DNA of 64,000 bases from contig NC_087080.1 in NCBI RefSeq assembly GCF_026151205.1, forward strand, positions 14,209,337 to 14,273,336, in the 5' to 3' direction. This document shows, piece after piece, positions 8,843 to 64,000 of this stretch. The translations under genes and the position numbers were made by a program. The DNA comes from Bolinopsis microptera. Lineage: Eukaryota; Ctenophora; Tentaculata; Lobata; Bolinopsidae. Within the stretch, counting starts at the first letter, position 1. Each line of letters begins with the position of its first letter. Under the pieces are notes generated by a model. It was given only the letters and a program-made list of their open reading frames with translations, ran no database searches and had not been told where the DNA came from.

Positions 8843-10333
8843 CAGGGTGGCCCATAAGTGACTACCCACACGCAACATCTAAATAACTCACGTAATTCGT
8901 CTCCAAATTGCACCAAAATTTCAGAGATTATAGATATGGGTCAAACTTAGATTTCCTGAAAGTTTCGTAAGCCACGCCCAATTACAGTGGGCGTGGCGTG
9001 ACACTCCCTCTTTTTCACTATTGTCTTCATAAAATGAGAACGCTTTAAGCTAAGAACTCAACATTTTTTGCACACATTTGGCTTGATAATTGAAAACTTT
9101 TCCAAAAGTTTCAAGTTCATTGGTTAAAATATGGCTAAGTTATGACCATTTCAAAACTCATCGGATACTTGATCCGAGCACTCAGTCAGTGATCTCGTCA
9201 CTTAATTAATGGCCTGTTTGGCTCACATGCACCGCTTGATTGGTTGCAGCCTGCTTATGGGCCGGCCTATACTGAGTATACAGCTGACAGCACCTAAAAC
9301 GCTATCACACGAATTAAACGACAATTTCAGATGAAATTCAACCGACCACCCCCTTGCCGGAAAAGCTGCTTTGACATTCATCACAAGATCAAGTTTACGT
9401 TTTCTGCACACGATCGGCGAAGAGTCGGCAGAAGACGAACTGCGAGGACTGTAGAAAACATCACGATGGTTGTTGGTGACGTGATGGACACACCTAAGAT
9501 TGGCACCCGGAAACGAGCTTCTGCCTTAGACATCAGCAGAACAACCCTTCAGCGAATCCTAAAGCAAGACCTTTCTAACCGGGCCTACCGAATCACAAAG
9601 AAACACAAACTTTTGGACCGTGATTTCTAATCGAGGATCGATTTCGCCAACACATTCCTGTCCAAGCAGAATGTGGATCCCTACTTTGAGGACGAAATCT
9701 GGTACAGCGACGAGGCTCACTGCCATATAAACGGATATGTCAACTCCCAGAATGCAATTCACTGGGGCTCTACTAGACCGGATGAAGTGGTGGAGAGAAC
9801 GGCTTTTCCTGAAAAGGTCACGATCTGGTGCGCCATCAGTTCTCGTGGAATCCTAGGACCTTACTTTTACGAAGAAAACGGTTTTCCTTTCTAGCAAAGT
9901 CATCATCGGTATCCAATCAAAGCCTAATGAACCTCATTAATACACGCTAACGCCTTACTCTTGATCAGATTGGGTTACGAGATCACTAATTGAGTGCAAA
10001 TATCACTTCGACTGAGTGCTCGGATCACATATCTGATGGAATTTAAAATGGTCATAACTCAGCCATATTTTAACCAATGAACTTGAAACTTTTGGAAAAG
10101 TTTTTAATTATCAAGCCAAATGTGTGCACAAAATTTTGAGTTCTTAGCTTAAAGCGTTCTCATTTTATGAAGACAATAGTGAAAAAGAGGGAGTGTCACG
10201 CCACGCCCACCGTAATTGGGCGTGGCTTACGAAACTTTCAGGAAATCTAAGTTTGACCCATATCTATAATCTCTGAAATTTTGGTGCAATTTGGAGACGA
10301 ATTACGTGAGTTATTAAGAGGTTGCGTGTGGTT
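8843..10333 (+). mobile_element. Tc1/mariner-superfamily element with long inverted repeats, right end truncated
   Basis: The left end begins CAGGGTGGCCCATAAGTGAC after a TA. The left inverted repeat runs to about 9205, and its counterpart occupies about 9985-10333, so each arm is about 350 bp. Shared blocks include GATCCGAGCACTCAGTC, GCGTTCTCATTTTATGAAGA and GGGCGTGGCTTACGAAACTT. The right arm stops about 30 bp short of its expected CCACCCTG end and joins the satellite array. A broken transposase gene lies between the arms. Confidence 0.87.
9331..9894 (+). pseudogene. Truncated Tc1/mariner-type transposase with in-frame stop
   Basis: One reading frame runs from the ATG at 9331 to a stop after ENGFPF at 9892-9894. 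A single TAA at 9628-9630 interrupts it. The N-terminal part holds a helix-turn-helix-like segment (ASALDISRTTLQRILKQDL, about residues 62-80). The C-terminal part holds the start of the DDE domain, with WYSDEAHCHINGYVN carrying the first catalytic Asp, then KVTIWCAISSRGILGPYFYE. The usual WFQQDGA block with the second Asp and the third acidic residue are absent. With the stop and the lost catalytic residues, it cannot encode an active enzyme. It is flanked by the element's own inverted repeats. Confidence 0.88.
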
Positions 10334-13300
10334 ATGAAACAGCGTACAGATTAGAGTACAGAGGTAGAGGTACAGAGCAAGCTGGTACAGATTAGAGGTA
10401 CAGAGCAGAGCTGGTACAATAGTAAGTACAGAGCAGAGCTGGTACAGAGTTATAGGTACAGAAGCAGAGCTGTACAAGAGTAGAGTACAAGCAGAGCTGG
10501 TACAGTAGTAGAGGTACAGACAGAAGGTGGTAATAATATCATAAAAAGGCGCAACTAGCAAAAACTAAGGACGTAATCATATCATAACAAGCTATCACTT
10601 GGCGCATTCCGGCAAGGCGGAGGAACCGCCACACACTTTCAACAGTGATAAAAATTGCAATCTCATTAAACTATATAAAAAATAAGTATAAAGAATAAGG
10701 AAAAGGAACGGGAATGAGCCAATACCAGAAAGTGAAAACCCCACCAAAGAAAAATTGATCCGTAGTAGACCTGGTGAAAAAACGTAACTGACTGTAAGTT
10801 CAAGAAAGACGAAGGATAAAGGAGAGAAAATAATGATTATGTGAACACATCAGCAGAAACTAGCACACCGGGTTCGTGTGTTAATACCTTTAAACCCGGT
10901 TTTATTGTGCCAAGACGCCCCAGCAAACACTCGTCAGTATTTGTAGCCTGCGAAACGTTGTTGACATACGCTCTATTGTTTATCCACCTGAGAAACTAGC
11001 TTCTTTACTCGGTGTTCTATTCAAGTGGTTTATGTAATTGTAGATGAGTGGTATATCCAACGTTATGAAATACAGCGTACAGAGAAGAGGTACAGAGTAG
11101 AGGTACAGAGCAAGCTGTACAGAGTAGAGACAGAGCAGAGCTGGTACATAGTAGAGTACAGCACAGAGCTGTACAGAGTAGAGGTACAGAGCAGAGCTGG
11201 TACAGAGTAGAGTAACAAGAGCCAGAGCTGTAACAGAGTAGAGGTACAGAGCAGAGCTTGTACAATAGTAGAGGTACAAGAGCAAGCATGTACATAGTAA
11301 GGTACAGAGCAGAGCTGTATTCGTGAATATCTAACCTCTCTCATTGGGTGTAGTGAGTGATGTGTTTTGTATAATTATCCAGGGTTACTCGTGTAAACCA
11401 AATTGAGTGGCGTATTAATAAGCAATATTAAAGATGTAAAGTTTTATATAAGCAAGTTTACTCTATTTTAAATAATGAAATGTAAATAATGGATAAGATG
11501 TGGTGATGATGAATGTACATTTTCACCAGCTTGACAACCTCCCACTGACAGTTATAACTAAATAGTCGACCATTAAAACAATACAAATGAACAGCATATT
11601 TACTGCCATTCAGCCTAACGCTGTTGATTGTTCACGCAAATGAAACACGCAAGTCTAACAGCTCGATCTTTCTAGACTTTATACAATAGTCTCCAGAATC
11701 AGAGCCACTAGATATAGAAAGTGTGTGGCGTGTGTGCGCCGTTGTGTGTGTTGTCCTACTGCATAACTCACGAAACATTGTCCATTTGTGTGTCGGACAG
11801 GTACAAACATTGTTTTTAAAACTTTAAAAAACATTGAAACAGTGTAAATCTTATCGAAAAGTGTAATAAATTATATATTATTATCTAAAAATATTATTAT
11901 TATAATTTCTAATTACGAGTTAAATAAGTAACCACTTATTTGATGAAGCCCGGCAGGTAGTATTAAATGTAAGAAGATAGTGTGATATGACAAATTAATA
12001 CAACATCAAAAATCGTGCGACGTATCATGTCTTTAAATAAACCCATACCCACACACACACCACACCTTGTATATCTACAGATTCTCGCATTTTTGCGCTT
12101 ATCACACGACACATACTATGTTAAGATAACTTGTTAAATATAGATATAGCTACAACACTAAATAGCTAAATATTTTATTGCTATACTTTATAGCTCAGTT
12201 ATACACTGTGTTTTCAAAGTCTATTTTATAGCTCTTTTATAAGACGCGCGAACGTCTAAAATTACAACCCTGTTAACAGAAAGATTTTTACATGAAAATA
12301 TCTAGAATTGTCATTCAAATTCATACTTGAGTATTTGATTGGGGGGGGTTAAAAATACTTGTGTACCTACCTAATAAATTAATTAACCAATGATAATTTA
12401 GGAAATTATAGTACATCACATACTGTTTACTCTTGAGAACTTACATTATGAATGATGGATAATATTTAAAGTATTCATCAGAAACTTAGAGCAACTCACA
12501 TAATCATTTGCCTAAAATTAGTAACAGTCGCATCTAAAAAAATGCCAACGACTCGCGATAAGAAAGTCCACACTAACAGAATGCACTTCTGACACACAAC
12601 CTGTGTGAGCCCTCAATTGTCCAACCTGTTCTGATGAGCGAGCCCCGTCAGTATTTGTAGCCGCTAAACGATGTGAGCTTCTACCTCTATTTTTTATCCC
12701 CTAGAAACAAGCTGTCTTTACTCGGTTTTCTATTCAGTGGTATATGTAGATTGTAGATGAGTTGTAAATATCCCACGTTATGAAATACAGCGTATCAGAG
12801 TAGCAGGTAAGAGTAGAGGTACAGAGCAGAGCTGGTACAGAGTAGAGGTACAGAGCAAGACTGGTACATTAGTAGAGTACAGAGAGCAGAGCTGGTACAG
12901 AGTAGAGGTACAGAGCAGAGCTGGTACAGAGTAGAGGTACAGGAGCAGAGCTGGTACAGAGTAGAGGTACAGAGCAGAAGGGGGTAATATATCATAAAAG
13001 GGCCCAACTAGGCAAAAAACTAAGTACGTAAATCAATATAAACAAGCCTATAACATTGCGGCATCCGGCAGCCGGAGAACCGCCACACACTTTTCAACAG
13101 TGATACAAATTGCAATCTCATAAACTATATAAAAATAATTATAAAGAATAAGGAAACGGAACGTATGAAGCCAATACCAGGAAGAGACACCCACCAAAGA
13201 AATAATTGATCCTTAGTAGACTGGTGAAATAAAGTAACTGAACTGAAGTTCAAGAAAAGACGGAAGGAATACAGGAAGAGAAATAATGTATGATGAACAT

Positions 13301-16300
13301 CATCAGCAGATGACTTAGGCACTCCGGTTTCGGGTTTTAATACCTGATACCGGTTAATGTGGCCAAGAACCCCCTAGCAATCACTCGTCATATTTGGTAG
13401 CCTGCTAAACGTTGTGACTACCTCTATTGTAATCCACCGGAGAAACAAGCTGTCTTTTTACTCGGTGTTCTATTCAGTGGTTTAAGTATAATGTAGATGA
13501 GTGGAACTATCCAACTTAAAGAATTACAGCGTACAGAGTAGAGGAACAGAGTAGAGGTACAGATCAAGCTGTTACAGAGTAGAGTACAGAGCAGAGCTGG
13601 TAACAATAGTAGAGGTACAAGAGCAGAGCTGGTACAGAGTAAGGTACAGAGCAAGAGCTGGGTACAGAGTAGATGTACAGAGCAAGCTGTACAGATGTAG
13701 AGGTACAGAGCAGAGCTTGTACATAAGGTAAGGTACCGAGCAAGCTTGTACATAGTAGAGGTACAGAGCAGAGCATGTTATTCCGTGAAATATCTAACCT
13801 TCTCTTCCTTGGTGTGTGAGTGAGGTTATGTTGTATATGTATCATAGCTGGGTTACTCTGTAACAAAATTAGAGTGCGTATTTAATAGCATTTTATTAAA
13901 GAATGTATCGTTTTATTAAGCAAGTTTTACTCCTATTTAAATATAGGAAATGTAAATAATGAATGATGTTGTGAGACTAATTACATTTTCAAGCTTCTGA
14001 CAACGCCCTCTGACTGATATATAACAAAAAAGTCGTCCAGTAATACAGTACCAAATGAACAGCAGTATTTCAACTGCCATACAGCTAACGCTGTAGTGAA
14101 ATGTTCACGTCAATGAACACCGCAAATCTAACAGCTCGGATCTTTCTAGACTTTATAACAATTAGTCTCCATAATCAGAGCCACTAGATAAGAAAGTGTG
14201 TGTGCGTGTGTGCGTGTGTGTGTGTCCTACTGCCATACTCTCGAAAACAGTGGGTCCATTGTGTGTTCGGACAGGAAAACATGTGTTTATAAAACGATAA
14301 AAAACATGACCAGTGATCTAATCGAAAGTGTATAAATTATATATTATTATAAATATATATTAATAGTAAAAGTCTTATTAGCTGATTTTAATGAGGTATC
14401 CACTTATTTTGATGAAAGCCGCAGGTAGTATTAAATGTAGTAGATAGTGTGAGATGACTAAAAAAATACAACATCAGAATAGATTTGCGACGTATCCATG
14501 GCTGTAATAAACCCATACACACACACACAACACACTCATTGTAATCTACAGATTCTCGATTTTTTGCGGCTATCACACGAAGCACATACATTAAGATAAC
14601 TGTTTACAAGAGAAATAGCAACACACGTTTATAGCTATTTACTTATTGGCAATACTTTAAGCTCTAGTTATACAGCAGTGGTTTTCAAAAGTTCTATTTT
14701 ATAGCTCTTTTATAAGACGGCGCGACGGCTAAAATTACAACTACTCCTGTGACAGAAAGATTATAATGAAAAATATCTTAGGAATTGTCATTCAAATACA
14801 TACTTGATTATTCTGAAATATACGTGTGTACCTAGCCTAATAAATTAATTAACCATGGATAATTAGGAGAATTATAGTACATCACATACTGTCTTTACTC
14901 TTGAGAACTTTCATTTAAGAAATGAAGATTGAATATTTAACCGTATTCATCAGAAACTTAGAGCACCTCCACATTATCATATGCTAAAATTAGTAACAGA
15001 CTGCACTAAAAAAAGTGGCCAACGACTCGCGATCAATATGACCACACTAAACATATGCACTCTGACACTCAACATTAGCCCTCTATTTTCCAACCTGTCT
15101 GATGTCGACCCGACAGTATTTGTAGCCTGCTAAACGTTGTGAGCTTTACCTCTATTGTATATCCACCTGAAACATAGCTGTCTTTAACTCGTGTTCTAAT
15201 TCAGAGTTATGTAGATTGTAGATGAGTTGAAATATCCAACGTTATAAAATACAGCGTACAGAGTAAGAGGTACAGAGATAGAGGTACAGAGCAGATCTGG
15301 TACAGAGTAGAGTAACAGAGCAGAGCTGGTACAAAGTAGAGATACAGAGTCAGAGCTGGAACAGAGTAAGGGTACAGAGCAGAGCTGTACAGGAGTAGAG
15401 TACAGATCAGAGCTGGAACATAAGGGTAAAAAAAAAAAAAGGTACAGAGCATGAAGGGGAAAATAATATCATAAAAGGCCAACTAGCAAAAACTAAGACG
15501 TAATCATATAATAACAAGCTATCACTTGGCGCTCCGCAGGGCGAGGAAACCGCCACACACTTTCAACAGTGATACAAATTGCAATCTCATTAACTATAAA
15601 AAAATAATATACAGAATAACGGAAAAGGAACGGGAAATGAAGCCAATACCAGAAGTGAAACCCCACAAAGAATAATTGATTCCTTAGTTGACCTGGTGAA
15701 ATAAAGTAACTGAACTGTATGTACAAGAAAAGACGAAGGAATAAAAGGAGAGAGGAAATAATGTTATTTGAACATCATCAGCAATGACTTGCACACCGGT
15801 ATTCGGGGTTTAATTCCTTTACCGGTTTAATGAGCAAAGACCCCTAGCAATCACTCGTCAGTATTTGTAAGCCTGCCTCACGTTGTGAGCTTACCTCTAT
15901 TGAAATCCACCTGAGAAAACTAGCTGTCTTACTCGGTGTTTCTATTCAGTGTTTAGTAGATTGTCAGATAGTGGTAATATCCAACATTATAAATACAGCG
16001 AACAAGTAGAGTACAGAGTAGAGGTACAGAGCAATAGCTGGTACAGAGTAGAGGTACATAGCAGAGCTGGTACATATTAGAGGTACAAGAGCAAGCTGGT
16101 ACAGATTAGAAGGATACAGAGCAGAGCTGGTACAGAAGTAGATGGTACGGAGCAGAGCTGGTACAAGTAGAGGTTACATAGCAAGCTTGTACATTAGTAG
16201 AGGTTACAGAGCAGAGCTTGTACCTAGTAGAGTACAGAGCAGAGCTGGTATACGTGAAATATCTAACCTTCCTCATTGGGTGTTTGATGAGGTGATGTGT

Positions 16301-19300
16301 TTATGTTATCAGTACCTGGTTACTCGTGTCAACCAAATTTGAGTGCGTATTTAATACATTATTAAAGAATGTAATTGTTTATTAAGCAAGTTTTACTCTT
16401 ATTTAAATAAGGAAATGTAAATATTGTATATGATTGTGGTTATTACTGAATGTACATTTTCAAGCTGCTGACAACCTCCTCTGACTGTAATATACTATAT
16501 AGTCGTCCCAGTAATACAATTCCAAATTTACAGCATAATTCACTGCCTTACAGCTAACGCTGGAAGATTGTTCACGTCAATGAAACACGCCAAAATCAAA
16601 CAGCACGGATCTTTCTAGACTTTATAACAAATAGTCTCCAAATCCAAGCACTAGATAGAGAAAGTGTGTGAGTCGTGTGTGCGTGTTGTGTGTCCTACTG
16701 CATACTCTCGAAACAGTGACCATTGAGTGATTCGGACAGGTAAACATTGTGTTTATACTTTAAAAAACATTGACCATTAATCTTATCGCAAGTGTATAAA
16801 TTATATATTATTATATATATATATTATTATTATAATGTCTTATTTACGGAGTAATGAGGTATCCACTTATTTTGATGATGCCGCAGTAAGTATTAAATGT
16901 AGTAGATATGTGAGATGACTAAAATATACAACATCAGATAGATAGTGCGACTATAAATTGCTTAAAATAAACCCATACACACACACACACACAATCATTG
17001 TAAATCTACAGATACTGCATTTCGCGGCTATCACACGACACATACTATGTAAGATAAACTGTTTACATAGAGATATATCTACACACTTCTAGCTAGAATA
17101 CTTATTGCTATAACTTTAAAGCTCTATTATAGCAGGCTGTGTATATTCAAAGTTCTATTTATAGACTCATAAATAAGACGGCGGCGACGGCTAAAAATAC
17201 AACTCCTGTGAAACAGACAGATTTTACATGAAAATATCTAGGAATTGTCAAACAAATTCAACTTGAGTATTTTGAATATACTTGTGTACCTAGCCAAATA
17301 AAATTAATTAACCATGATAATTTAGAAATAATAGTACATCACATACAGTTTACTCTTGAGAATTTCATTATGAATGCTGAAAATAATTAAAGTAATCCTC
17401 AGAAACTTTAGATGCAACTTCCACATTATACATTTCTAAAATTAGTAACTGTCGCACAAAAAAAATGACAACGACTCGCGGATAAGAGTCCACACTAACA
17501 GATGCTCTCTACACTCACCTGTGGCCCACTATTGTCCAACCTGTCAGATGTCTACCGACAGTAATTGTAGCCTGCAAAACGTTGTTAGCTTACCCTCTAT
17601 TGTCATCCACCAGAGAAACTAGCTGTTCTTACTCGTTGTCTAATTCAGTGTTTATGAGATTGTAGATATTGTAATTATCCAACGTTAAGAAATACAGCGA
17701 ACAGAGTAGAGTTAAGAGTGAGGTACAGAGCAGAGCTGGTACAGAGTAGAGATACAGAGCAGAGCTGGTACATAGTATAGTACAGAGCGAGCTGGTAAGA
17801 TAGAGTACAGAGCAAGAGCTGGTACAGAGAAGAGGTAAGAGCCAGAGCTGGTACAGATTAAGAGGTACAGAGCAGAAGTGGGTAATAATATCATAAAAAG
17901 GCCAACTAGCAAAACAAAGGACGTAAATAAATAAAAACAAGCTATCACTATGGCGCATCCGCAGGGCGGGAATGAACCGCCACACACATTCAACAGTGAT
18001 ACAATTGCAATCATCAATTAAACTATATAAAAAAACCGTATAAAAGAATAAGGAAAAGAACGGAATGAAGCCAATAAACCAGAAGTGAAACCCCACCAAA
18101 GAATAATGATCCTTATGTAGACCTGGTGAAGTATAAAGTAACTGAACTGTAATTCAAGAAAATACGGAAGAATAAAGGAGAGGGTAGGAAATAAAGTTAT
18201 GTGAACATCATCAGCAGATGAATTGGCACACCGGTTCGGGATTAATACCTGTACCGTTTAATGTGCCAAGACCCCCTAGCAATCACTCGTCAGTATTTGT
18301 AGCCTCTAAACGTTGTGACTTAACCTCTATTTTTATCCACTGATAAACTAGCTGTCCATACTCGTTGTTCAATCAGCGGTTTATGTAGATAGTAGATGAG
18401 TGGTAATATCCAACGCTTATTAAATACAGCGTACAGAGTAAGGTACATAGTAGGGTACAGAGCAGAGCAGGTACAGAGTAGAGGTACAGAGGCAGAGCTG
18501 GTTACATAGTAGAGGTACAGAGCAGAGCTGGACAGAGTAATAGTACAGAGCATAGCTGGTACAGAGTAGAGTTACAGAGCAGACTGGTACAGAGTAGAGG
18601 AACAGATCAACTTGTACATATAGAGGTAACAGAGCAGAGCATTGTACATAGTAGAGGTACAGAGCAGAGCTGGTATTCGTGAAATATCTAACCTTCTCTC
18701 ATGGGGTGTGATGAGTTGATGTTGTTTATGTTATCATTAGCCTGGGTTACTCGTTTAAACCAAATTTGAGTGCGTATTTAATAGCAATTTATTAAAGATC
18801 TAAAGTGTTATTAAGCCAAGTTTACTCTTAATTAAATAGGAAATGTACAATAAAGGAAATGATGTGTGGTGAGACAGAATGTACATTTTCTAGCAGCTGA
18901 CAACCCCCTCTGACTGTTATATACTATAAAGTCGTCCAGTAATACAATACCAAATTGTACAGGCAGTATTTTCACTGCCAATTACAGCTAACGCTGTTGA
19001 TTGATCGTCAATGTAAACACGCAAATCTAGACATCTCGGATCTTTCATATACTTTATAAACAATAGTCTCCAGATCAGAGCCAGTAGATAAGAAAGTGTG
19101 TGTGCGAGGTGCGTGTGTGGTGTGTTCCTACTGCATACTCTCGAACAGTGTCCAATGTGTGTCGGGACAGGTAAACATGTGTTTAAAACTTTAAAAAACA
19201 TTGACCAGTTGATCTTATCGAAAGTGTATAAATTATATATTATTATATATATATATTATTAAACATAATGTCTTTTACGAGTAATGAGGTATCCACCTTA

Positions 19301-22300
19301 ATTATGATGCCGCAGGGTAGTATTAAATGTAGTAGATAGTGTGAGATGACTAATTAATACAACATCAATAGATATGGCGAACGTATCAAGTGCTTTAAAT
19401 AAACCATACACACAACACACCACACACTCATTGTATATCTACAGATACTCGCATTTTTTGCGGCTATCACACGATCACATACTATGAAAGAAAACTGTTA
19501 CATAGAGATATAGCTAAACACTTATATAGCTAAATACATTATTGCTATACTTTATGAGCTCTAGTTATACAGCTGTTTTTCAAAGTTCATTTAATAGCTC
19601 TTTTAAAGACGGGCGCGACGGCTAAAATTACAACTCCTGTGAACAGAGAAGATTATACATGAAAATATCTAGGAATGTCATTCAATAAATCAAACTTGAG
19701 AATTTTTGAAATATACGTGTGTACCTAGCAATAAAATTATTAACCATGATAATTTAGAAATTAATAGTAACATCACATACTGATTTACTCTTGAGAACTT
19801 TCATTATGAAGATGAAAATATTAAAGTAATTCATCAGAAAACTTAGAGCAACTCCACATTATCATTTGCTAATAATAGTAACTGTCGCACTAAAAAAATT
19901 GCCAACGACTCGCAATAAGAGGTCCACCTAACAGATCTCTCTAGAACACAACCATTTTTAGCCCTCTATAGTCCAACCAGTCTGATTGCCCCCGTCAGTA
20001 ATTGAATCTCAGCTAAACGTTGGTGAGCTTACCTCATGTTTTCCACCTGAGAAACTACTCTGTCTTACTCGGTGTTTCTATCAGGTTATATGTAGATTGT
20101 AGATGAGAGGTAATATCCAACGTATGAAAGTACAGCGTACAGAGTAGAGTAACAGAGTAAGGTACAGAGCAGAGCTGTACAGATAAAGGTACAGAGCAGA
20201 CTGGTACATAGTAGATTACAGATGCAGAGCAGGTAACAGAGTAGAGGTACAGAGCAGAGCTGGGTACAGAGTAAGTACAGACAGAGCTGGTACAGAGTTA
20301 GAAGTTACAGAGCAGAATGTGTAATAATATCCTAAAAAGGGCCAACTAGCAAAAACTAAGGACGTAAATCATGATAATAACAAGCTATCACTTGGCGCAA
20401 CCTGCAGGTCGGAGGAATCCGCCACAACCACTTTCAACAGTGATACAAATTGCAATCTCTATTAAACTAAATAAAAAATAAGTATAAGAGAGTAAGGAAA
20501 AGGAACGGGAAATGAAGCCATACCAAAGGGAAACCCCACCAAATAATAATTGATCTTAGGTAGACCTGGTGAAATAAAGTAACTGAACTGTAAGTTCAAA
20601 GAAAATGACGGAATGAATAAAGGAGAGAGGAAATAATGATATGTGAACATCATCAGCAGATGACTGGCACAACTGTTTCCGGGGGTATAATTACCTGTAC
20701 CGTTTAATGGCCAATACACCCCTAAGCATCACTCGCAGTATTTGTAGCCTGCTAAACGTTGTTGAGCATACCACTATTGGTATATCCACCTGAGAAACAA
20801 GCTGTCATTTACTCGGTGTTCTATTCTGTGGTTATGTAAGATTGATAAGAAAGTGGTAATAACCAACGTTAAGAAATACAGCGTATAGAGTAAGGTACAT
20901 AGTAGAGTACAGAGCAGAGCAGGTACAGAGAAGGAACAGAGCAGAGCTGGTACATATATAGGTACTAGAGCAGAGCAGGTACAGAGTAGAGGTAACAGAG
21001 CAAGCTGGTACAAGAGTAGAGGTACAGAGCAGAGCTGGTACAGAGTAGAGGTACAGAGCAGGAGCTATGTACATAGTAGAGTACAGAGCAGAGCTTGTAC
21101 CATAGTAAAGGTACAGAGCATAGCAGTATTCGGAAATATCTAACCTTCTCTCAATGGGTGTTGAGTGAGGTGATGTGTTAATGAAATCAGTAGCCTGGTA
21201 CTCGGTAAACCAAAATTGAGTGCGATATAATACATTTAATAAAGATGTTAAAGTGTTTATTAAAGAAGTTTTACTCTTATTTTAATAATGAATTGTTAAA
21301 TAATGGATATGAATAGTGTGATATGACTGAATGAACATTTTACAGCTGCTGACAAACCTCCCTCTTACAGCTATTATACTATATATCGACCAGTAATACA
21401 ATACCAAATGTACAGCATTTACACTTCCATTACAGCAAACGCTGTTGATTGTCTCTTCAATGAAACCACGCAAATCAACAGCTCGGATCTTTCTAGACTT
21501 TATATCAATAGTCTCCAGAAATCATAGCCACTAGATAGAGAAAGTGTGTGTGCGGTGTGCGTGAGTGTGTGTCCTACTGCATACTTCGAAACCAGTGTCC
21601 ATTTGAGAGTCGGACAGGATAAACATTGTGTTTAAAACTTTAAAAAACATTGACCAGTGATCTTAACGCAAGTGTAAAATTAATATCTTTAATATATCAA
21701 GTAATATTATTAAAATGTCTTATACGGATTTAATGAGGTATACACTATATTATGATGCCGCAGTTAGTATTAAAAAGATTAATAGAGAGAGATGACTAAA
21801 TTAATACAACAACAGAAGATAGTTCTACGAATCATTGCTTTAAATAAACCCATACACACACACACACTACACTCATTGTAGATCTACAGAATCTCGCATT
21901 TTTGCGGCTATCACACACACAAACTATTAAAGATAACTGTAACATAGAGAATAGCACACACTTTATAGCTAGAAACTTTATTGCTATAACTTTATAGCTC
22001 TAGTTTACACAGCTGTGTTTTCCAATTCTATTTATAGCTCTTTTATAAGACGGGCGCGACGCTAAAATTACAACTCCAGCGAACAGAAAGATTTTACATG
22101 AAAATATCTAGGAATTGTCATTACAAATTCATACATGAGTAATTTTGGGAAATATACGTGGTACTAGCCTAATAAAATTAATTAACCATAATAATTTAGG
22201 AAATTATAGTAACATCACATACTGTTTACTCTTGAGAACTTCATTATGAATGATGATAATATTTAAAGTAATTCATCAAAACTATAGCAACTCCACATTA

Positions 22301-25300
22301 TCATTTGCTAATATTATAACAGCTGTCGCCAAAAAAAAGTGCCCACTGACAGCGATAAGAGGGCACACTACAACAGATGCCTCTGACACTCAACCTTGTG
22401 AGCCCTCTATTGTCCAACCTGTCCTGATGTGACGAACCGTCATATTTTGTAGCCTGCAAAAACGTTGTGAGCTTACCTCTATTGTTTTCCACCTTAGAAA
22501 CCTAGCTGACCTTTATCGTGTTTCCTATTCCGTGGTTTAAAGTAATTGAGATGAGTGGTAATATCCACACGATCTGAAATACAGCGTAACAGAGTAGAGG
22601 AACAAAGTAGAGGTACAGAGCAGAGCTGGTACAGAGTAGTGGAACAGAGCAGAGCAGGTAACATAGTAGAGGACAGAGCAGAGCTGTTACAGAGAAGAGG
22701 TACAGAGCAGGAGCAGGTACAGAGTAAGGTACAGAGCATAGCAGGTACAGAGTTGAGGTACAGAGCAGAAGGGGTGTAATAAAATCATAAAAAGGGCCAA
22801 CTATCAAAAACTAAGGACGTAATCAATAATAACAAGCTATCACTTGGCGCATCCGGCAGGGCTGAGGAACCCCACACAAAGCACTTTAACATGAAACAAA
22901 TTGCAATCTCCTTTAAAACACTAAAAAAAATAGTAAAAAAGAATCTAATGAAAATGAACGGGAAGGACCAAAACCAGAAGTGAAACCCCACCGAAAGAAT
23001 AATTGAATCATAGTAACCTGGTGAAATAAAGAACTGAACTGTAAGTTCAAGAAAAGACTGGAAAAGGAATTAAAGAGAGAGGAAATAATGTTAGTGTGAA
23101 CATACATCAGCAGATGACCATGTCACACCGGTTTCGGTGGTTTAATACCTGTACCGCGGTTTAAATGTCCAGACCCCCTAGCATCACTGTCAGTATTGTA
23201 GCCTGCTAAAACTTGTGAGCTTACCTTCTATTGTAACCACCGAGAAACAAGCGACTTTACTCGTGTACTAGTTCAGTGGTTTATGTAGATTGTAGATGAG
23301 TGGAAAATATCCAACGTTATGAAATACAGCGGTACAGAGAAGAGACACAGAGTAGAGGTACAGATCAGAAGCTGGTACAGAGGTAGAGGTACCGAGCCGA
23401 GCTGGTACTGTAAGGTACAGAGCAGAGCTGGTACAGAGTAGAGTACAGAGCAAGAGCTGGTACAGAGTAGAGGTACAGAGCAGAGCTGGTACAGAGTAAG
23501 GTAACAGAGCAGAGCTTGTACATAGTAGAGGTAACAAGCAGAGCTTGTACATAGTAAGAGGTACAGAGCAAGCTGGTATTCGAGAAAAATCTAACCTTCT
23601 CTCATTTGGGTGTTTGGAGTGAGGTGATGTTTTAATGTAACAGTGAGCCTGGGTTACTCGAGTAAACCAATTTGAGTGCGTATTTAATAGCATTTTTAAA
23701 GATGTAAAGTGTTTATAAGCAAGTTTTACTCTTAATTAATAAGAGAAATGTAAATAAAGGGATATGATGGTGGAGATGACTGAATGTACGTTTCAAGCTG
23801 CTGGACAACCACCCTCTGACAGTTATATACTATATAGTCGCCAGTAAACAACAAAACCAAATGTACAGCAGTAATTTCACTGCCATTATCAGCTAACTTG
23901 GGTTTGGGTTTGATTGTTCACGTCAAGAAACACGCAATCTACAGCTCGGATCTTTCCTAGACTTTATTAACAATGTCTCCAGAATCAGAGCCACTAGATA
24001 GAAAAGGTGTGTGCGTGTGTGCGGTTGTGTTTGTCCTACTGCATACTCTCGAACAGAGTCCTTTGTGTGTCGGACAGGTAAACATTGTGTTAAAACTTTA
24101 AAAAACATAGACCATGGATCTTATCGAAAGTGTATAAATTAATATATTATTATATATATATATTATATAAAATGTCTTATTACGGAGTTTAATGAGGTAT
24201 CCACTTATTTGATGATGCCGCACAGGTAGTATAAATGATAGAAGATAGTGAGGATGACTAAATTAACTACAACATCATATAGATAGTGCGACGTATCATG
24301 TTGCTTTAAATAAACCATACACACACACAGGACACACACTCAATGTATATCACAGATTCTCGCATTTTGCGATATCACACGAGCACATACTATGTAAGAT
24401 AACTGTTACATAGAGATATAGCTACACACTTTTATAGCTAGATACTTTAATGCTAAACTTAAATAGCACTGTTATACAGCTGTGTTTTCAAAGTTCTAAT
24501 TGATACCTTTTATAAGACGGGCGCGACGGCTAAAATTACAACTCCAGGAACAGAAAGATTTTACATGAAAATATTCTAGAATTGTTCATTTTCAAATTCA
24601 TACTTGAGTATTTTGAAATATACGTGTGTACCTAGCCTATTAATAAAATTAATTAACCATGATAATTAGAAATTATAGTAACATCACAACTGTTTACTCT
24701 TGAGAACTTTCCTTATGAAATTGAATAATATTTAAAGAAATTCACAGAAAAACTAGAGCCTCCGACCTTATCAATTTCTAAAATTATAACTGTCGCACAA
24801 AAAAAAGTGCCAACGACTCGCGATAATGAGGTCCACACTAACAATTCTCTCTGCAACACAACTTGTGAGCCCTCTCTATTGTCAACCTGTCTGATTTGCG
24901 ACCCTCAGTATTTGTAGCCTGCTAAACTTGTGAGCTTACCTCTATTGTTATCCCACCGAGAAACTAGCTGTCTGTACTCGGTGTTCTAATCAGTGGTTTA
25001 GTTAGATTGTAGATGATGGTAATTCCAACGGTTATGAAATACAGCGTACAGAGTAAAGGTACAGATAGAGTTACCGAGCAGAGCTGTACGAGTAGATGTA
25101 CAGAGCATATCGATGCTGGTACATATAGAGGTACAGAGCAGAGCTGGTACAGATTAGAGGTTCAGAGCAAGCTTGTACAGAGTAGAGTGTACAGAGGCAG
25201 AGCTGGTACAGAGTAGAGGTACAGAGTCAGAAGGGGTAATACAATAACATAAAAGGGCCAACTATCAAACACTAAGGACGTAAATCATTAATAACAAGCA

Positions 25301-25452
25301 AACACTTGGCGCATCCGTCAGGGCGGGAGGAACCGCCAGCACACTTTCAACAGTTAAACAAATGCAACTCATAAAACTATATAAAAATATAAGTATAAAG
25401 AATAAGGAAAAGGAACGGAATGAAGCCAATAAATCAGATAATGAAATAGTCA
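10334..25452. repeat. Satellite array, unit about 2.45 kb, six copies plus a partial
   Basis: The landmark ATACAGCGTACAGAG recurs at 10340, 12788, 15252, 17695, 20133, 22582 and 25042 (spacing 2438-2464) and again at 11073, 13528, 15996, 18427, 20879 and 23328. Each unit therefore holds two related half-modules offset by 732-746 bp. Both halves share a leader (GTCAGTATTTGTAGCCTGCT ... GGTAATATCCAACGTTATGA) and then a 16-bp-type minisatellite of GGTACAGAGCAGAGCT and GTACAGAGTAGAG. They differ afterwards: the shorter tail runs through AACCGCCACACACTTTCAAC, and the longer tail contains CACACACA and AT-rich DNA. No long ORF or known RNA gene is visible. Many single-base indels separate the copies. 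Confidence 0.93.
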
Positions 25453-58800: not shown

Positions 58801-61800
58801 ATCTAGAGCTGCTTATATGTTTGTTTCGTTTACTAGTGCACCTACTACCGGAATACCCTTGTTGTGAGTTTTAGCTTAGTCCGATCATTCGAGAATATTC
58901 GAGAACATTCGAGAGAGTTTGTCGGTGGATCACGTGAAAGTTGAAGATGAGTAGCTGTTTTTGTTTTCGTAACACTGTGAACAGTGTTAACTCTCGTTTG
59001 GTCTCCGAACAGTGTATGGAGAAGCTGAAGACGTCTCTGAGTGATAAGAATGTGTTTGACATCCTGGAACAGTCCACTGGGGATATCGGTATGCTTTCTT
59101 TTTATTTATTTTTTTCTGTGTTTCAGGTCGGAATTTTTATTTAGTAATTCATTTAGTAAATTTGTTCAGAAAATTTATTTAGAAAATGTATTTAGAAAAT
59201 GCTTTTAGTAAATTTGGATTTATATGTCTTTGGTGGTCTTGAAAAATACTGAGCATTTACGATGTTACCAACCAAGGGCTTCTTTCAAGGATGGCGGGAA
59301 AATTTTCTCTTTGAAACTGAAACGCTCTGTAAAATTAGAGGACCTCTTTAAATGTTGAAATTTTGCCTTCAAAAGGAGATTTTAACAGATTTTAACAGGC
59401 TGGATCCGTTTTAAATTGTATTATGTCTCCTAACTGTTAGAGCAGAGCAAGTTTATATTATTCTAGAAGAAGAATACTCTCAAATTGAGGGTCTCAATCC
59501 TCTATTTAATGTTTATTTAAATTGAACAAGAGAATTTTCAAAGAGCTGCCTTAGTCCTACAAAGGAGTCCACCATTTAACACACTATTTAACCATACTAT
59601 TATGCCTTCCCAAATGCACGGTAACTCAATATAACGGGTATAAAACATACTGTTAGTCGACATGCACCGTCTGGCATGTTAAGAAACCGTGACTGGATCT
59701 GATTCTAACGACTAAAACCTACCTCAGGAGTACTGAACTCAGTGGCTATGACCTACATAGAGGACAACTTCAAGACACTTTACAAAAACGACAGGATCTT
59801 AAGGTTGAACTGGGAGAGTTTCCACAAGATACTGTCCAGTGACCGTCTCAACGTTGAGAATGAGGATAAGGTAATTAGAATTTTTTTAATTTTCTGTATC
59901 GAGTTTTAAATTTTACCTGATCAGCTTCTAGTTCTAGTGTCCTTGTATAATGGTAGCTGATATCATTGTCGTTTCTCGTCTCACAACATGCTTGTAGCTC
60001 CTCCTACTCGGTGTCCACTGAAATTTGTATTTTGTTTGGATTATGGTTTTAAAGGTTGTGTGGTATTATTATCTCTATTATTTAACGGCACTTATTTACT
60101 ACACGGCACTTACTATACGGCACTCACTATACGGAACGTACTTACTATACTTAGCTCACCATCTTTCCCAATCTATTGCCGATCAAATAATCCCCAATCC
60201 ATCAGTATTCACAGTAACCCCACCAATAACTGTGTGCTAGTGACCCCACCCCAGCAACTCTTAACGGTATATAACCCCATGTCTCGCCAGGTCTATCAGT
60301 TAGCATTAGCGTGGGTAGCTAAGGTATATAACCCCATGTCTCGCCAGGTCTATCAGTTAGCATTAGCGTGGGTAGCTAAGGTATATAACCCCATGTCTCG
60401 CCAGGTCTATCAGTTAGCATTAGCGTGGGTAGCTAAGGTATATAACCCCATGTCTCGCCAGGTCTATCAGTTAGCATTAGCGTGGGTAGCTAAGGTATAT
60501 AACCCCATGTCTCGCCAGGTCTATCAGTTAGCATTAGCGTGGGTAGCTAAGGTGTATAACCCCATGTCTCGCCAGGTCTATCAGTTAGCATTAGCGTGGG
60601 TAGCTAAGGTATATAACCCCATGTCTCGCCAGGTCTATCAGTTAGCATTAGCGTGGGTAGCTAAGGATGACATTGGAAGAAAACCTCACGTTACCGAGAT
60701 CTGCTCAAAAATACGGATCCCCTTCATGACAGACTACGGACTACAGGTTCGCTCTTCTAACCTGCAGTTACTTTTTCATTTTTTAGATATCATTGAGCAT
60801 AAGCAGTGATACAACGTATCTCGGGATGATCCGTAGAGTCTCGACTAGTTTCGGCTTACCGCCATCAACAGGATCGATGAATCATTTCAAATTATTTGTT
60901 ATTATATAGTAGTGTTGAAAGTATTAAAACTTACTTTTTCATAACTTTCTAGTAGTTCAAGTTACTTTTGGTCACTTTTTATTTACTCTTGAAACCTGAT
61001 TTGTTTTAAGTTATTTTTGTTAGCTGAACAGTACATTTTTACTGTTTTGAAGTGTTAAGTTTCTAATATATGGTTGAGTTACTCTCAACCCCTTTATAGT
61101 CCCTAGTGTGGTTTGAAGCCTCATAACTTTAATGGCTAGTGTAACTTTCATTAGTGATTAGAACACAAAAGTCGTTGTTAGTAAAGCACATTCTTCATTT
61201 ATTACGAGCTGCATAGCATGGTGTTTGTAATAGTAAATAATATTCGCATATTGCGTGTGCAAAGAGTCGTTAGCAATTATCATTCCACCATTTATTAATT
61301 GTAATTATACCATATAATAGCGGTGATGTGTTAAACAACGTGTCATTAACCGGAAATCCTGGATAATGTACGGGGGATGATTTGTGAGTGGGGGATTGTT
61401 ACAAAAACCGTGTAAAAAAAACATTTTCTCCTTGCAGAACATGGTGTGTAACAAGAACATCCTGACGAGTAACGAGGAGTTTTACAATAATATAGAGACG
61501 TTGCTAGGCAACCCTGCAGCGTTGCAGGTCCCCTTTTATCAGAGGGTCAATGATAAGATGGGGAAGATATTCGTGTTTGGGGGGTATCTGAACAGATCCC
61601 ACATTACTACCACTATGGAGGTTTACAACAGGTATATAGCAAGTACACTTAGGTATATAGCCAGTACATTTAGGTACTATAGCAAGATATGGTCTGAGTA
61701 GTAGTACTCACTTCTAATATTTAAATATCCATCATTATCATTAGTCCCCTGACTATTAGTCGCACTTCCACATTTTATAGCTTACTTTTACAACAACAGT

Positions 61801-62817
61801 TTAAATACAAAATAAAACCAAATTGCTGGTAACCATAGTAACTAGTAACCATATTGCTGGTAACCATAGTAACTAGTAACCATATTGCTGGTAACCATAG
61901 TAACTAGTAACCATATTGCTGGTAACCATAGTAACTAGTAACCAAATTGCTGGTAACCATAGTAACTAGTAACCATATTGCTGGTAACCATTGTAACTAG
62001 TAACCATATTGCTGGTAACCATAGTAACTAGTAACCAAATTGCTGGTAACCATAGTAACTAGTAACCATATTGCTGGTAATCATAGTAACTAGTAACAAA
62101 ATTGCTGGTAAACATAGTAACTAGTAACCATATTGCTGGTAACACAAAACATGAACCTGTTCTCATTGTCCAGGCGTACAGGAGCATGGGAAACAATAGA
62201 GGAGATGAACATGACAAGTACACCACCCAGTATCTACTCGGCAACCATGACTTCTGTTGCTGTTGATAATAAGATCTACATCGCAGGTATATTGTTACTT
62301 CATGGAGTTACATTATAATGTTACGTTACTTCATGGAGTTACATTATGATTTTATAATGTTACGTTATAACGCCTATCGTAGTGATAACGTGGAGACAGT
62401 ATTTTTTGCGGTACCATGACATTGTCATGGCAACAGTTAAACATTGTTATGGTTACTATAAGTATGACAATGGTGGGAGAGTTCCAACCCTATTTTACCC
62501 ATTATCCATATCTACATTTTAGTTTACGTTTTTCTCACAAAATGACCATATTTGGGATTAAATCCTTATCTTAAAACCTACCTACAGTAAAACTTTGTCA
62601 CGACAACAATATAACCGTGACACACTATCCCAGGGGGACAAAGTGACAGCGGCACGAGGTTGGATACCACCTTTGTATTTGACGGTATTCTCTCCATCTG
62701 GGCCAGTCTTCAGGAGATGCCGACTGTAAGAGTGAAGAGCGCTGCTGCTCGCTTTGGCAACTTCTTGTACGTCAGTGGGGGACAGAAGGATAGGCATACC
62801 ATGAACGAAGTTATCAG
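52693..62817 (+). CDS. KLHL: BTB-BACK-Kelch (KLHL-type) protein, nine exons of a partial gene
   Basis: The product is probably a cullin-3 substrate adaptor: BTB binds Cul3 and dimerises, BACK links, and Kelch blades bind substrate (family knowledge). Exons 52693-52878, 53649-53734, 55147-55229, 59013-59088, 59728-59870, 60633-60746, 61438-61631, 62174-62286 and 62634-62817 join in phase to 1179 nt (393 codons). The BTB domain contains YAEHLLNNLHGD, TCDVIIKTKENTSIFAHSAI and IIDYLYTG. The BACK domain contains TYIEDNFKTL, ILSSDRLNVENEDK and VYQLALAWVAKDD. The first Kelch repeats contain IFVFGGYLNRS, MEVYNR, AWETIEEMNM, KIYIAGG, IWASLQEM and FLYVSGG. Normal KLHL proteins are about 550-650 residues with five or six blades, so the remaining blades lie beyond the right edge. 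The start may be the ATG at 52724 or in an upstream exon I could not find. Which KLHL it is cannot be told. Confidence 0.92.
53649..53734 (+). CDS. KLHL: KLHL exon 2 (end of BTB)
   Basis: The acceptor is CTTCCCCCCAG and the donor G|GTAAGT. It encodes LCKAGRYTIDLSHLSATALQ followed by DIIDYLYTG. It carries the family hallmark 'f..ll.yiYTG' at the end of the BTB fold. Confidence 0.9.
53935..54005. repeat. Short CCCTGGTATAGCA repeats
   Basis: Four imperfect copies of ACCCTGGTATAGC lie in KLHL intron 2. Confidence 0.75.
54759..54857. repeat. 32-bp tandem repeat, three copies
   Basis: The unit is CATCAGACTCTCAGCACG plus ATATGTTGCATGTT, in KLHL intron 2. Confidence 0.88.
55147..55229 (+). CDS. KLHL: KLHL exon 3 (BTB-BACK linker)
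   Basis: The acceptor is TATTCTAG and the donor CAG|GTAGGG. It encodes QFNIVNKKFLSMVLTLKELE and MEEIIDQ, corresponding to the helices that follow YTG (usually 'l.i....V..ll.aA..lQ'). The intron after it contains the 44-bp repeats and the 1.93-kb inverted-repeat element. Confidence 0.87.
55485..55665. repeat. 44-bp tandem repeat, four copies
   Basis: Copies start at 55485, 55529, 55573 and 55617. The unit is CCCGGCTTATGGCCTGATCA plus AGCATGTAGGTTAAATGTCG and TACT, in KLHL intron 3. Confidence 0.93.
55933..57868. mobile_element. Unclassified 1.93-kb inverted-repeat element in KLHL intron 3
   Basis: The element is 55937-57864 (1928 bp). It has a perfect 29-bp terminal inverted repeat beginning CAGCAATAGCAGCAAATCTG and running to GGGGAAACTT. 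The sequence TGTT lies on both sides and could be a 4-bp target duplication. The interior has no long ORF. It contains some 20-25 irregularly spaced copies of TTAACCACC or its inverse GGTGGTTAA, and two CpG-rich near-palindromes (56329-56354 and 56500-56527). It is probably a non-autonomous DNA transposon. The superfamily is unknown; a 4-bp duplication is seen for example in Ginger and Chapaev elements. Confidence 0.8.
59013..59088 (+). CDS. KLHL: KLHL exon 4 (start of BACK)
   Basis: This 76-nt exon encodes CMEKLKTSLSDKNVFDILEQ and STGDI. It begins with the conserved Cys that follows the BTB-BACK linker. A second acceptor-like site (GTGAACAG) lies 28 bp upstream but leads straight into a stop, so the GAACAG at 59012 is chosen. 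The donor is CG|GTATGC. Confidence 0.85.
59728..59870 (+). CDS. KLHL: KLHL exon 5 (BACK core)
   Basis: This 143-nt exon encodes VLNSVAMTYIEDNFKTLYKN, then DRILRLNWESFHKILSSDRL and NVENEDK. 'FI..NF..L', 'L....F..LLSSD.L.V..E' is the classic BACK pattern. The acceptor is ACCTCAG and the donor AAG|GTAATT. Confidence 0.92.
60267..60665 (+). repeat. 57-bp tandem repeat, seven copies, spanning the acceptor of KLHL exon 6
   Basis: Units start at 60267, 60324, 60381, 60438, 60495, 60552 and 60609. They are identical except for one A-to-G change in unit six. Each unit is 24 bp of intron end (GTATATAACCCCATGTCTCG plus CCAG) and 33 bp of exon start. Every unit reads VYNPMSRQVYQLALAWVAK in the coding frame. 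Confidence 0.97.
60633..60746 (+). CDS. KLHL: KLHL exon 6 (end of BACK), minimal form
   Basis: In its shortest form the exon is exactly 38 codons: VYQLALAWVAKDDIGRKPHV, TEICSKIRIPFMTDYGLQ. This matches BACK 'V..A...WV..D...R......LL..IR.P.M'. The acceptor is TCTCGCCAG and the donor CAG|GTTCGC. The same acceptor with the first 11 codons occurs in six further tandem copies upstream, all in frame, so the exon could start at any of seven sites. Confidence 0.88.
61438..61631 (+). CDS. KLHL: KLHL exon 7 (start of Kelch repeats)
   Basis: The acceptor is TCTCCTTGCAG. It encodes NMVCNKNILTSNEEFYNNIE, passes through QRVNDKMGKIFVFGGYLNRS and ends TTTMEVYNR. 'IFVFGGY' and 'MEVYN' are the first Kelch-blade landmarks. 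The donor AACAG|GTATAT is the first of three similar donors 21 bp apart. Confidence 0.9.
61630..61690 (+). repeat. 21-bp repeat carrying the donor of KLHL exon 7
   Basis: AG|GTATATAGCAAGTACACTT, AG|GTATATAGCCAGTACATTT and AG|GTACTATAGCAAG follow one another at a 21-bp step from 61630. All are in frame. Confidence 0.88.
61822..62145. repeat. 31-bp minisatellite in KLHL intron 7
   Basis: About ten copies of TTGCTGGTAACCATAGTAAC plus TAGTAACCATA run to within 30 bp of the acceptor of exon 8. Confidence 0.93.
62174..62286 (+). CDS. KLHL: KLHL exon 8 (Kelch)
   Basis: The acceptor is TTGTCCAG and the donor CAG|GTATAT. It encodes RTGAWETIEEMNMTSTPPSI, YSATMTSVAVDNKIYIAG. W.....M and KIYIAG mark the end of one blade and the start of the next. 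It joins in phase to the next exon, giving AGG. Confidence 0.9.
62634..62817 (+). CDS. KLHL: KLHL exon 9 (Kelch)
   Basis: The acceptor is ACTATCCCAG and the donor ATCAG|GTAATG. It encodes GQSDSGTRLDTTFVFDGILS, IWASLQEMPTVRVKSAAARF and GNFLYVSGGQKDRHTMNEVI. It covers a second blade and the start of a third. The gene continues beyond 64000. Confidence 0.91.
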
Positions 62818-63464: not shown

Positions 63465-64000
63465 AAGATGTAACCCCCCCCCCCCCCCCCCCCACATGTT
63501 AAACAACTTACAGCAGTGCAGGAACCTGCCCCCCCCCCCCCACATGTTAAACAGTTTACAGCAGTGCAGGAACCTGACAAGCAGACCCCCCCCCCCCCCC
63601 CCCACATGTTAAACAACTTACAGCAGTGCAGGAACCTGCCCCCCCCCACATGTTAAACAACTTACAGCAGTGCAGGAACCTGCCCCCCCCCCCCCCACAT
63701 GTTAAACAACTTACAGCAGTGCAGGAACCTGGTCAGCAGACCCCCCCCCCCCCCACATGTTAAACAACTTACAGCAGTGCAGGAACCTGCCCCCCCCCCC
63801 CCCCCCCCCCCCACATGTTAAACAACTTACAGCAGTGCAGGAACCTGGTCAGCAGACCCCCCCCCCCCCACATGTTAAACAACTTACAGCAATGCAGGAA
63901 CCTGCCCCCCCCCACATGTTAAACAATTTACAGCAGTGCAGGAACCTGCCCCCCCCCCCCCCCACATGTTAAACAAATTACAGCAGTGCAGGAACCTGCC
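63465..64000. repeat. Array of a 37-bp block alternating with long C-tracts, ten copies to the window edge
   Basis: The block CACATGTTAAACAACTTACA plus GCAGTGCAGGAACCTG occurs at 63493, 63541, 63603, 63648, 63697, 63755, 63812, 63869, 63913 and 63963. Copies are separated by C-runs of 7 to more than 20. Some copies add GTCAGCAGA or ACAAGCAGA before the run. Confidence 0.96.

Follow-up and report, generated by a model that had tools for sequence, protein, structure and literature searches.

A 57-bp minisatellite with a predicted splice acceptor in each of seven units at exon 6 of a KLHL-type gene

The window (the whole stretch of DNA analysed, 64,000 nt, C9:14209337-14273336) contains a gene of the KLHL type, in which a tandem array straddles the acceptor of the exon that continues the BACK domain. 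When exons 4-8 are joined through the last acceptor of this array, BACK (PF07707) is matched with an E value of 1.4e-20 and 73.7 bits (cut-off 20.9), and since this join gives a continuous domain, exon 6 and its frame are real, as the earlier note on this DNA had held. Kelch_1 is matched in exons 7-8 (E 7.1e-10) and in a downstream exon (E 3.5e-13), and the first exon alone gives BTB (PF00651) at 16.8 bits, below the cut-off of 20.5. The gene model leaves out exons 2, 3 and some later exons, and the 5' edge of its exon 4 is uncertain. The protein searched against Pfam and structures was without the three residues (DIG) at the join of exons 4 and 5, which lie ahead of the BACK match. When the sequence was compared with solved structures, designed kelch proteins came first, aligned over the kelch part only, and the rows covering BACK include Keap1 (3e-8), KLHL3 (4e-8), KBTBD2 (6e-8) and gigaxonin (1.6e-7).

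Where intron 5 meets exon 6, TRF reports 7.0 copies of a 57-bp unit over 60266-60666, with 99% matches and zero indels; read unit by unit, the seven units together span 60267-60665 (Table 1). Six of them are identical and unit 6 differs by a single A>G at base 3 of the unit. Each unit consists of 24 nt of intron origin, GTATATAACCCCATGTCTCGCCAG, followed by 33 nt of exon, and each is translated as VYNPMSRQVYQLALAWVAK in one open frame; stops occur in all the remaining five frames of the array. The repeat thus spans the exon-intron boundary in the manner of a variable boundary tandem repeat. The claims that seven near-identical units lie across the acceptor of exon 6, and that every copy has its own acceptor and 11 codons of BACK sequence, are borne out by this reading. 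Exon 5 ends in phase 0 and exon 6 does so too, at 60746; as, moreover, 57 is divisible by three and the 24 nt of intron origin contain no stop in frame, whichever acceptor is used joins exon 5 in frame. The length of exon 6 is 38+19k codons, with k from 0 to 6, which is the in-frame ladder of 38, 57, 76 and so on up to 152 codons that had been proposed.

Table 1. Coordinates of the features at the array and in the neighbouring exons of the KLHL-type gene (window positions; a slash marks the exon-intron junction)
Feature	Position	Strand	Remarks
CTTAAC, candidate branch point	60260..60265	+	before unit 1 only; branch A 27 nt ahead of first acceptor
Unit 1	60267..60323	+	24 nt GTATATAACCCCATGTCTCGCCAG + 33 nt VYQLALAWVAK; AG ends 60290
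Unit 2	60324..60380	+	AG ends 60347
Unit 3	60381..60437	+	AG ends 60404
Unit 4	60438..60494	+	AG ends 60461
Unit 5	60495..60551	+	AG ends 60518
Unit 6	60552..60608	+	GTGTAT for GTATAT, synonymous in read-through; AG ends 60575
Unit 7	60609..60665	+	AG ends 60632
Exon 5	59728..59870	+	first part of BACK (..NVENEDK); donor AAG/GTAATT after GAT; ends in phase 0
Exon 6, shortest (38 codons)	60633..60746	+	VYQLALAWVAKDDIGRKPHVTEICSKIRIPFMTDYGLQ; donor CAG/GTTCGC
Exon 7	61438..61631	+	BACK end, first kelch; donor CAG/GTATAT, the intron hexamer within the array
21-bp x 2.7 array on exon 7 donor	61630..61686	+	TRF; one further AG/GTATAT, then AG/GTACTA
Exon 8	62174..62286	+	kelch; donor CAG/GTATAT
Exon 9	62634..62817	+	extends open frame of exon 8; kelch-like by eye only

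TRF arrays cover 12% of the window between 43 and 64 kb, and two of the ten boundaries of exons 5-9 (the acceptor of exon 6 and the donor of exon 7) lie inside arrays, against about 1.2 by blind placement according to our own reckoning. With such a high local array density the position of the array alone is unsurprising; the surprise lies in the seven full in-frame acceptors.

The exon with all seven units was also taken as a whole. A single-sequence AlphaFold model of it is of poor quality (mean pLDDT 52, pTM 0.35) and silent on stability; it drew approximately one helix per unit, a picture that was discarded. An hmmscan of the same exon gave 17 Pfam rows, most of which were taken as repeat artefacts, with the exception of BACK on the last unit. 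Nearly all the non-BACK rows (E+ motif, Ribonuc_red_lgN and others) contain no stretch passing alone, and the ARC6 row contains one, which is below its cut-off.

The strength of the acceptors was gauged against introns of the same genome, obtained from exon-by-exon matches to two training families, PF00118 (35 rows) and PF00063 (73 rows). Forty introns were fetched, 39 were modelled, 37 had a clear margin and 36 were used, leaving out L046 (not modellable), L028 and L051 (margin below 1) and L060 (which contained N). In the position-weight model, which leans towards pyrimidines and YAG as does the rule by which the training acceptors were chosen, the unit acceptor scores above 34 of the 36 real acceptors, and of the 1081 AGs present in 20 kb none but those of the seven units score as high. 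The other acceptors of the gene, those of exons 5, 7, 8 and 9, outscore 30, 32, 5 and 1 of the 36, respectively. Besides, TAAC with its branch A between -29 and -15 is present in 10 of the 36 real introns, against 3.4 in shuffled sequences (one of 500 shuffles reached 10), and every unit has a branch-like TATAAC with the A at -17. A test for the perfect yUnAy motif separated acceptors poorly: a well-placed one is absent also at the real acceptors of exons 7 and 9, and exon 8 has it only at -9. On the grounds of the position-weight score and of TATAAC at -17, each unit is a complete putative acceptor module, formed by a branch-like motif, a pyrimidine-rich stretch and CAG, beyond a mere AG, and the acceptors that had been pointed out at every copy are strong by the standard of the genome itself.

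The six internal junctions of the array are donor-like, five of them reading AAG/GTATAT and one AAG/GTGTAT. AAG/GTATAT outscores 13 of 36 real donors, and 3.6% of the 1183 GTs in 20 kb score at least as high. Exons 7 and 8 of the gene likewise have GTATAT at their donors, but of the 37 conserved-gene introns modelled with a clear margin in this genome none starts with it. Would-be introns that begin at an internal donor and end at one of the later acceptors measure 24, 81, 138, 195, 252 or 309 nt. The introns estimated between neighbouring family matches, in a survey of all 108 rows of PF00118 and PF00063 that is blind to short in-frame introns read through by the match, amount to 59 pairs with a median of 258 nt, the shortest being of about 98 nt and the next of 124 nt, so that 58 of the 59 have at least 124 nt. 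When 79 of these rows were taken, 49 pairs were obtained, with a median of 183 nt and the shortest unchanged. Four family matches contain 21-54 extra nt, which may be an insertion or an intron. Since 24 and 81 nt are below the shortest estimated intron, pairing of a donor-like AAG/GTATAT with the next two acceptors is improbable; it probably cannot take place, and any splicing inside the array would probably pass over two acceptors or more. The suggestion of one donor-like site per copy therefore stands as far as six sites with ordinary scores are present, but not for the two shortest introns that they would define.

Related to this, several acceptors could be in use together with some of the internal donors, the latter giving introns of at least 138 nt, and unit number would then set the mix of a family of BACK lengths. 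The acceptor scores are identical across units, the donor hexamer is that of exons 7 and 8, and all combinations remain in frame, as 33, 57 and 24 are multiples of three; nevertheless, this explanation has to face the absence of GTATAT from the 37 introns mentioned above as well as the lengths of 24 and 81 nt, and we consider it rather unlikely.

A search of the 264.65-Mb, 232-contig assembly with the array and its flanks as query found one other genomic place, 133 kb upstream (in the region of C9:14135800-14136900), where a second copy of the gene carries an array of five units (285 bp, against 399 bp in the window), the third of which has a single synonymous T>C. Collinear homology extends over approximately 46-50 kb (C9:14,100,982-14,151,492 versus 14,237,499-14,283,143), its pieces over window coordinates 48-70 kb being 92.5-99.8% identical, and an 862-bp match that runs into the array (59691-60552) reaches 99.65% identity. 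The variants of the two arrays are different and each is private to its copy. Unit number, seven versus five, thus differs between gene copies as it does in variable boundary repeats, and it is taken from this comparison to have changed after the two copies parted. The expansion had been described as recent or ongoing and possibly polymorphic; a change of copy number is borne out by the two gene copies, whereas polymorphism between individuals does not follow from it, as the five-unit copy may be the other haplotype or a paralogue.

The second copy may be the other haplotype placed in tandem, or a true paralogue. To its left lies a stretch of about 16 kb with the appearance of raw reads (C9:14,101.0-14,117.6 kb; L012, L011), homologous to window 28-45.7 kb. 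In the part that was profiled, its alignment to the window contains 17-38 mismatches per 250 columns, as well as numerous indels of 1 bp, and the noise ends sharply near window 45.7 kb. Same-base neighbours are 1.73-1.92 fold over chance in the seven 2-kb bins starting at 14,103,000-14,115,000, and 0.80-1.40 fold in the other bins (excluding two edge bins and one N-padded bin). This stretch looks like unpolished gap fill. The published account of the Bolinopsis microptera assembly, in the parts that deal with its construction, reports gap closing with TGS-Gapcloser, purging of haplotigs, 13 chromosome-scale scaffolds and a 1n size of about 254 Mbp by k-mers (PMC10232365); Iso-Seq and RNA-seq of this species are described there too. 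The unpolished stretch favours the second copy as the other haplotype, scaffolded in tandem; a true duplication has still to be considered because no long matches were found outside the collinear block in the fetched stretches, which cover 10 kb to the right of the copy in the window.

It could also be argued that the array, or its copy number, is an artefact of assembly, as apparently unpolished sequence adjoins the second copy and the assembly probably went through the gap closing and haplotig purging just cited. However, both arrays are located in clean sequence (that of the 862-bp match), they carry different private variants, their 399 and 285 bp fit easily inside one long read, and the two copies agree on the existence of the array. 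An artefact is therefore very unlikely.

Ten exon pieces of the gene, comprising 538 codons, align between the two copies with no gaps, and 12 codons differ, 11 of them synonymously and one non-synonymously. This count trims the exon ends, so that it omits the split codon of exons 4 and 5 (GGA here and GGG in the other copy, synonymous) and the differences at 64605 and 64607, which were taken as intronic (before the AG at 64608-64609). Such a proportion argues for purifying selection on the coding sequence, and the host gene looks functional by this measure. Both unit variants are third-position synonymous if the array is read through, as 19 of the 57 possible transitions in a unit would be; they agree weakly with translation of the array, two variants being few.

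It seems moderately probable that the locus holds a young 57-bp coding and splice-site minisatellite within a functional KLHL-type gene, of which the first acceptor is used most and the units are inserted in BACK. Tandem duplication over the junction between intron 5 and exon 6 would have created the second acceptor, unequal exchange or slippage would have changed the number of units later, and the open frame together with the multiple-of-three length would have made the array tolerable. Going by the signals in the DNA, acceptor usage would probably fall mainly on the first acceptor because it combines strong signals with the extra CTTAAC at -27, of which it is the first AG downstream. The usual mRNA would then retain all the units, BACK would gain six 19-residue inserts in the window copy and four in the second copy, and later acceptors would give rise to shorter protein forms. 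The internal AAG/GTATAT donors would be mostly silent because an intron starting from them would have to pass over two acceptors or more, and so measure at least 138 nt, to attain a length seen in this genome.

Several observations weigh against these points. The seven acceptors share the context from -24 to +33, so that CTTAAC is the sole feature favouring unit 1; six inserts in a compact helical domain could spoil BACK; and the internal donors score like ordinary donors. Another possible reading of the strong constraint on the gene is that the last acceptor (60632/60633) is used and the array is spliced out, in which case the array would be effectively intronic, BACK would be normal and the units would represent neutral intron length. 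Splicing at the last acceptor gives the continuous BACK match and an exon of 114 nt, and the intron, with 762 nt, would be inside the estimated range. On the other hand, six upstream acceptors of equal strength must then be ignored, and the two unit variants, few as they are, leave the protein unchanged when the array is read through; an intronic array is in our opinion unlikely. It is quite improbable that the locus works as a splice switch tuned by repeat number, in which several cassettes are used and the five- and seven-unit copies or alleles produce different sets of BACK lengths. If it did, a minisatellite would set the geometry or activity of a likely ubiquitin-ligase adaptor.

Repeats at exon-intron boundaries are already known in human genes, and the KLHL array is a clean, strong example of them. 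The human study is presumably the work of De Grassi and Ciccarelli (2009). Parts of that paper describe minisatellite units with an average of 30 bp, repeated 4 times, at exon-intron boundaries of duplicated genes; recent gene copies differ in the number of these units, which can give rise to new introns and are either retained in the mRNA or spliced out of it, with 27 intron modifications after manual check (PMC2812944). The KLHL array resembles those repeats in being a minisatellite at an exon-intron boundary whose unit number varies between gene copies. It differs in that the seven units are near-identical and each has a full strong acceptor together with codons of a conserved domain, and in that purifying selection acts on the host, a KLHL gene that probably comes from an invertebrate. 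Moreover, nearly all the human loci have RNA support, according to the same parts of the paper (PMC2812944), whereas the KLHL array is known here from DNA alone. Between repeats, false splices can be produced by aligners of short reads (EASTR, PMC10632439).

Intron gain through tandem genomic duplication of AGGT has been reviewed (PMC3443670), and potato RdRp has been presented as a case of intron gain by tandem duplication (PMC4974935), as far as the sections bearing on it state. Such a duplication also makes an adjacent donor and acceptor and leaves the frame unbroken. In the present case, however, the duplicated piece spans an existing acceptor, so that it multiplies acceptors and makes no intron, and the would-be adjacent introns of 24 nt are too short; pairs of next-but-one sites (81 nt) are also below the shortest estimated intron of about 98 nt, and only wider pairs give 138 nt or more.

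Tandem acceptors of the NAGNAG kind, separated by 3 nt, use a common branch point, and these neighbouring in-frame acceptors alter protein length. The acceptors of the array would be alike in the latter respect, but they follow one another at intervals of 57 nt, each with a branch-like motif of its own. The literature on VNTRs that carry acceptors yielded related work only, which does not prove that such a case is absent in print.

Seven equal in-frame acceptors at intervals of 57 nt constitute a natural experiment on the choice of the spliceosome among identical 3' splice sites, for which the five- and seven-unit gene copies are a built-in comparison. Protein length may depend on the repeat chosen by the splicing machinery, and the array would illustrate how, at an early stage, a conserved domain can be extended by a minisatellite with the frame intact. 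Should a single acceptor, the first or the last, account for all the splicing, the array would be no more than an ordinary minisatellite, coding or intronic.

Other repeats were observed in the window. The array on the donor of exon 7 gives the KLHL-type gene an in-frame ladder of donors as well, and a 31-bp x 10.6 minisatellite (61816-62143) fills much of intron 7, ending some 30 nt short of the exon 8 acceptor. A C-rich minisatellite, with poly-C runs alternating with a short unit, extends from 63480 to the window end at 64000. Six head-to-tail units of 2.45 kb, about 83% alike and with very many 1-bp indels, occupy 10331-25446; same-base neighbours are not raised in this region, which is either unpolished sequence or a diverged macrosatellite. 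Finally, two neighbouring exons of a myosin gene (C3:9154012-9154203 and 9154255-9154485) align to one and the same segment of the motor domain (105-167 and 102-167 of PF00063), as mutually exclusive exons do, which these two may be.
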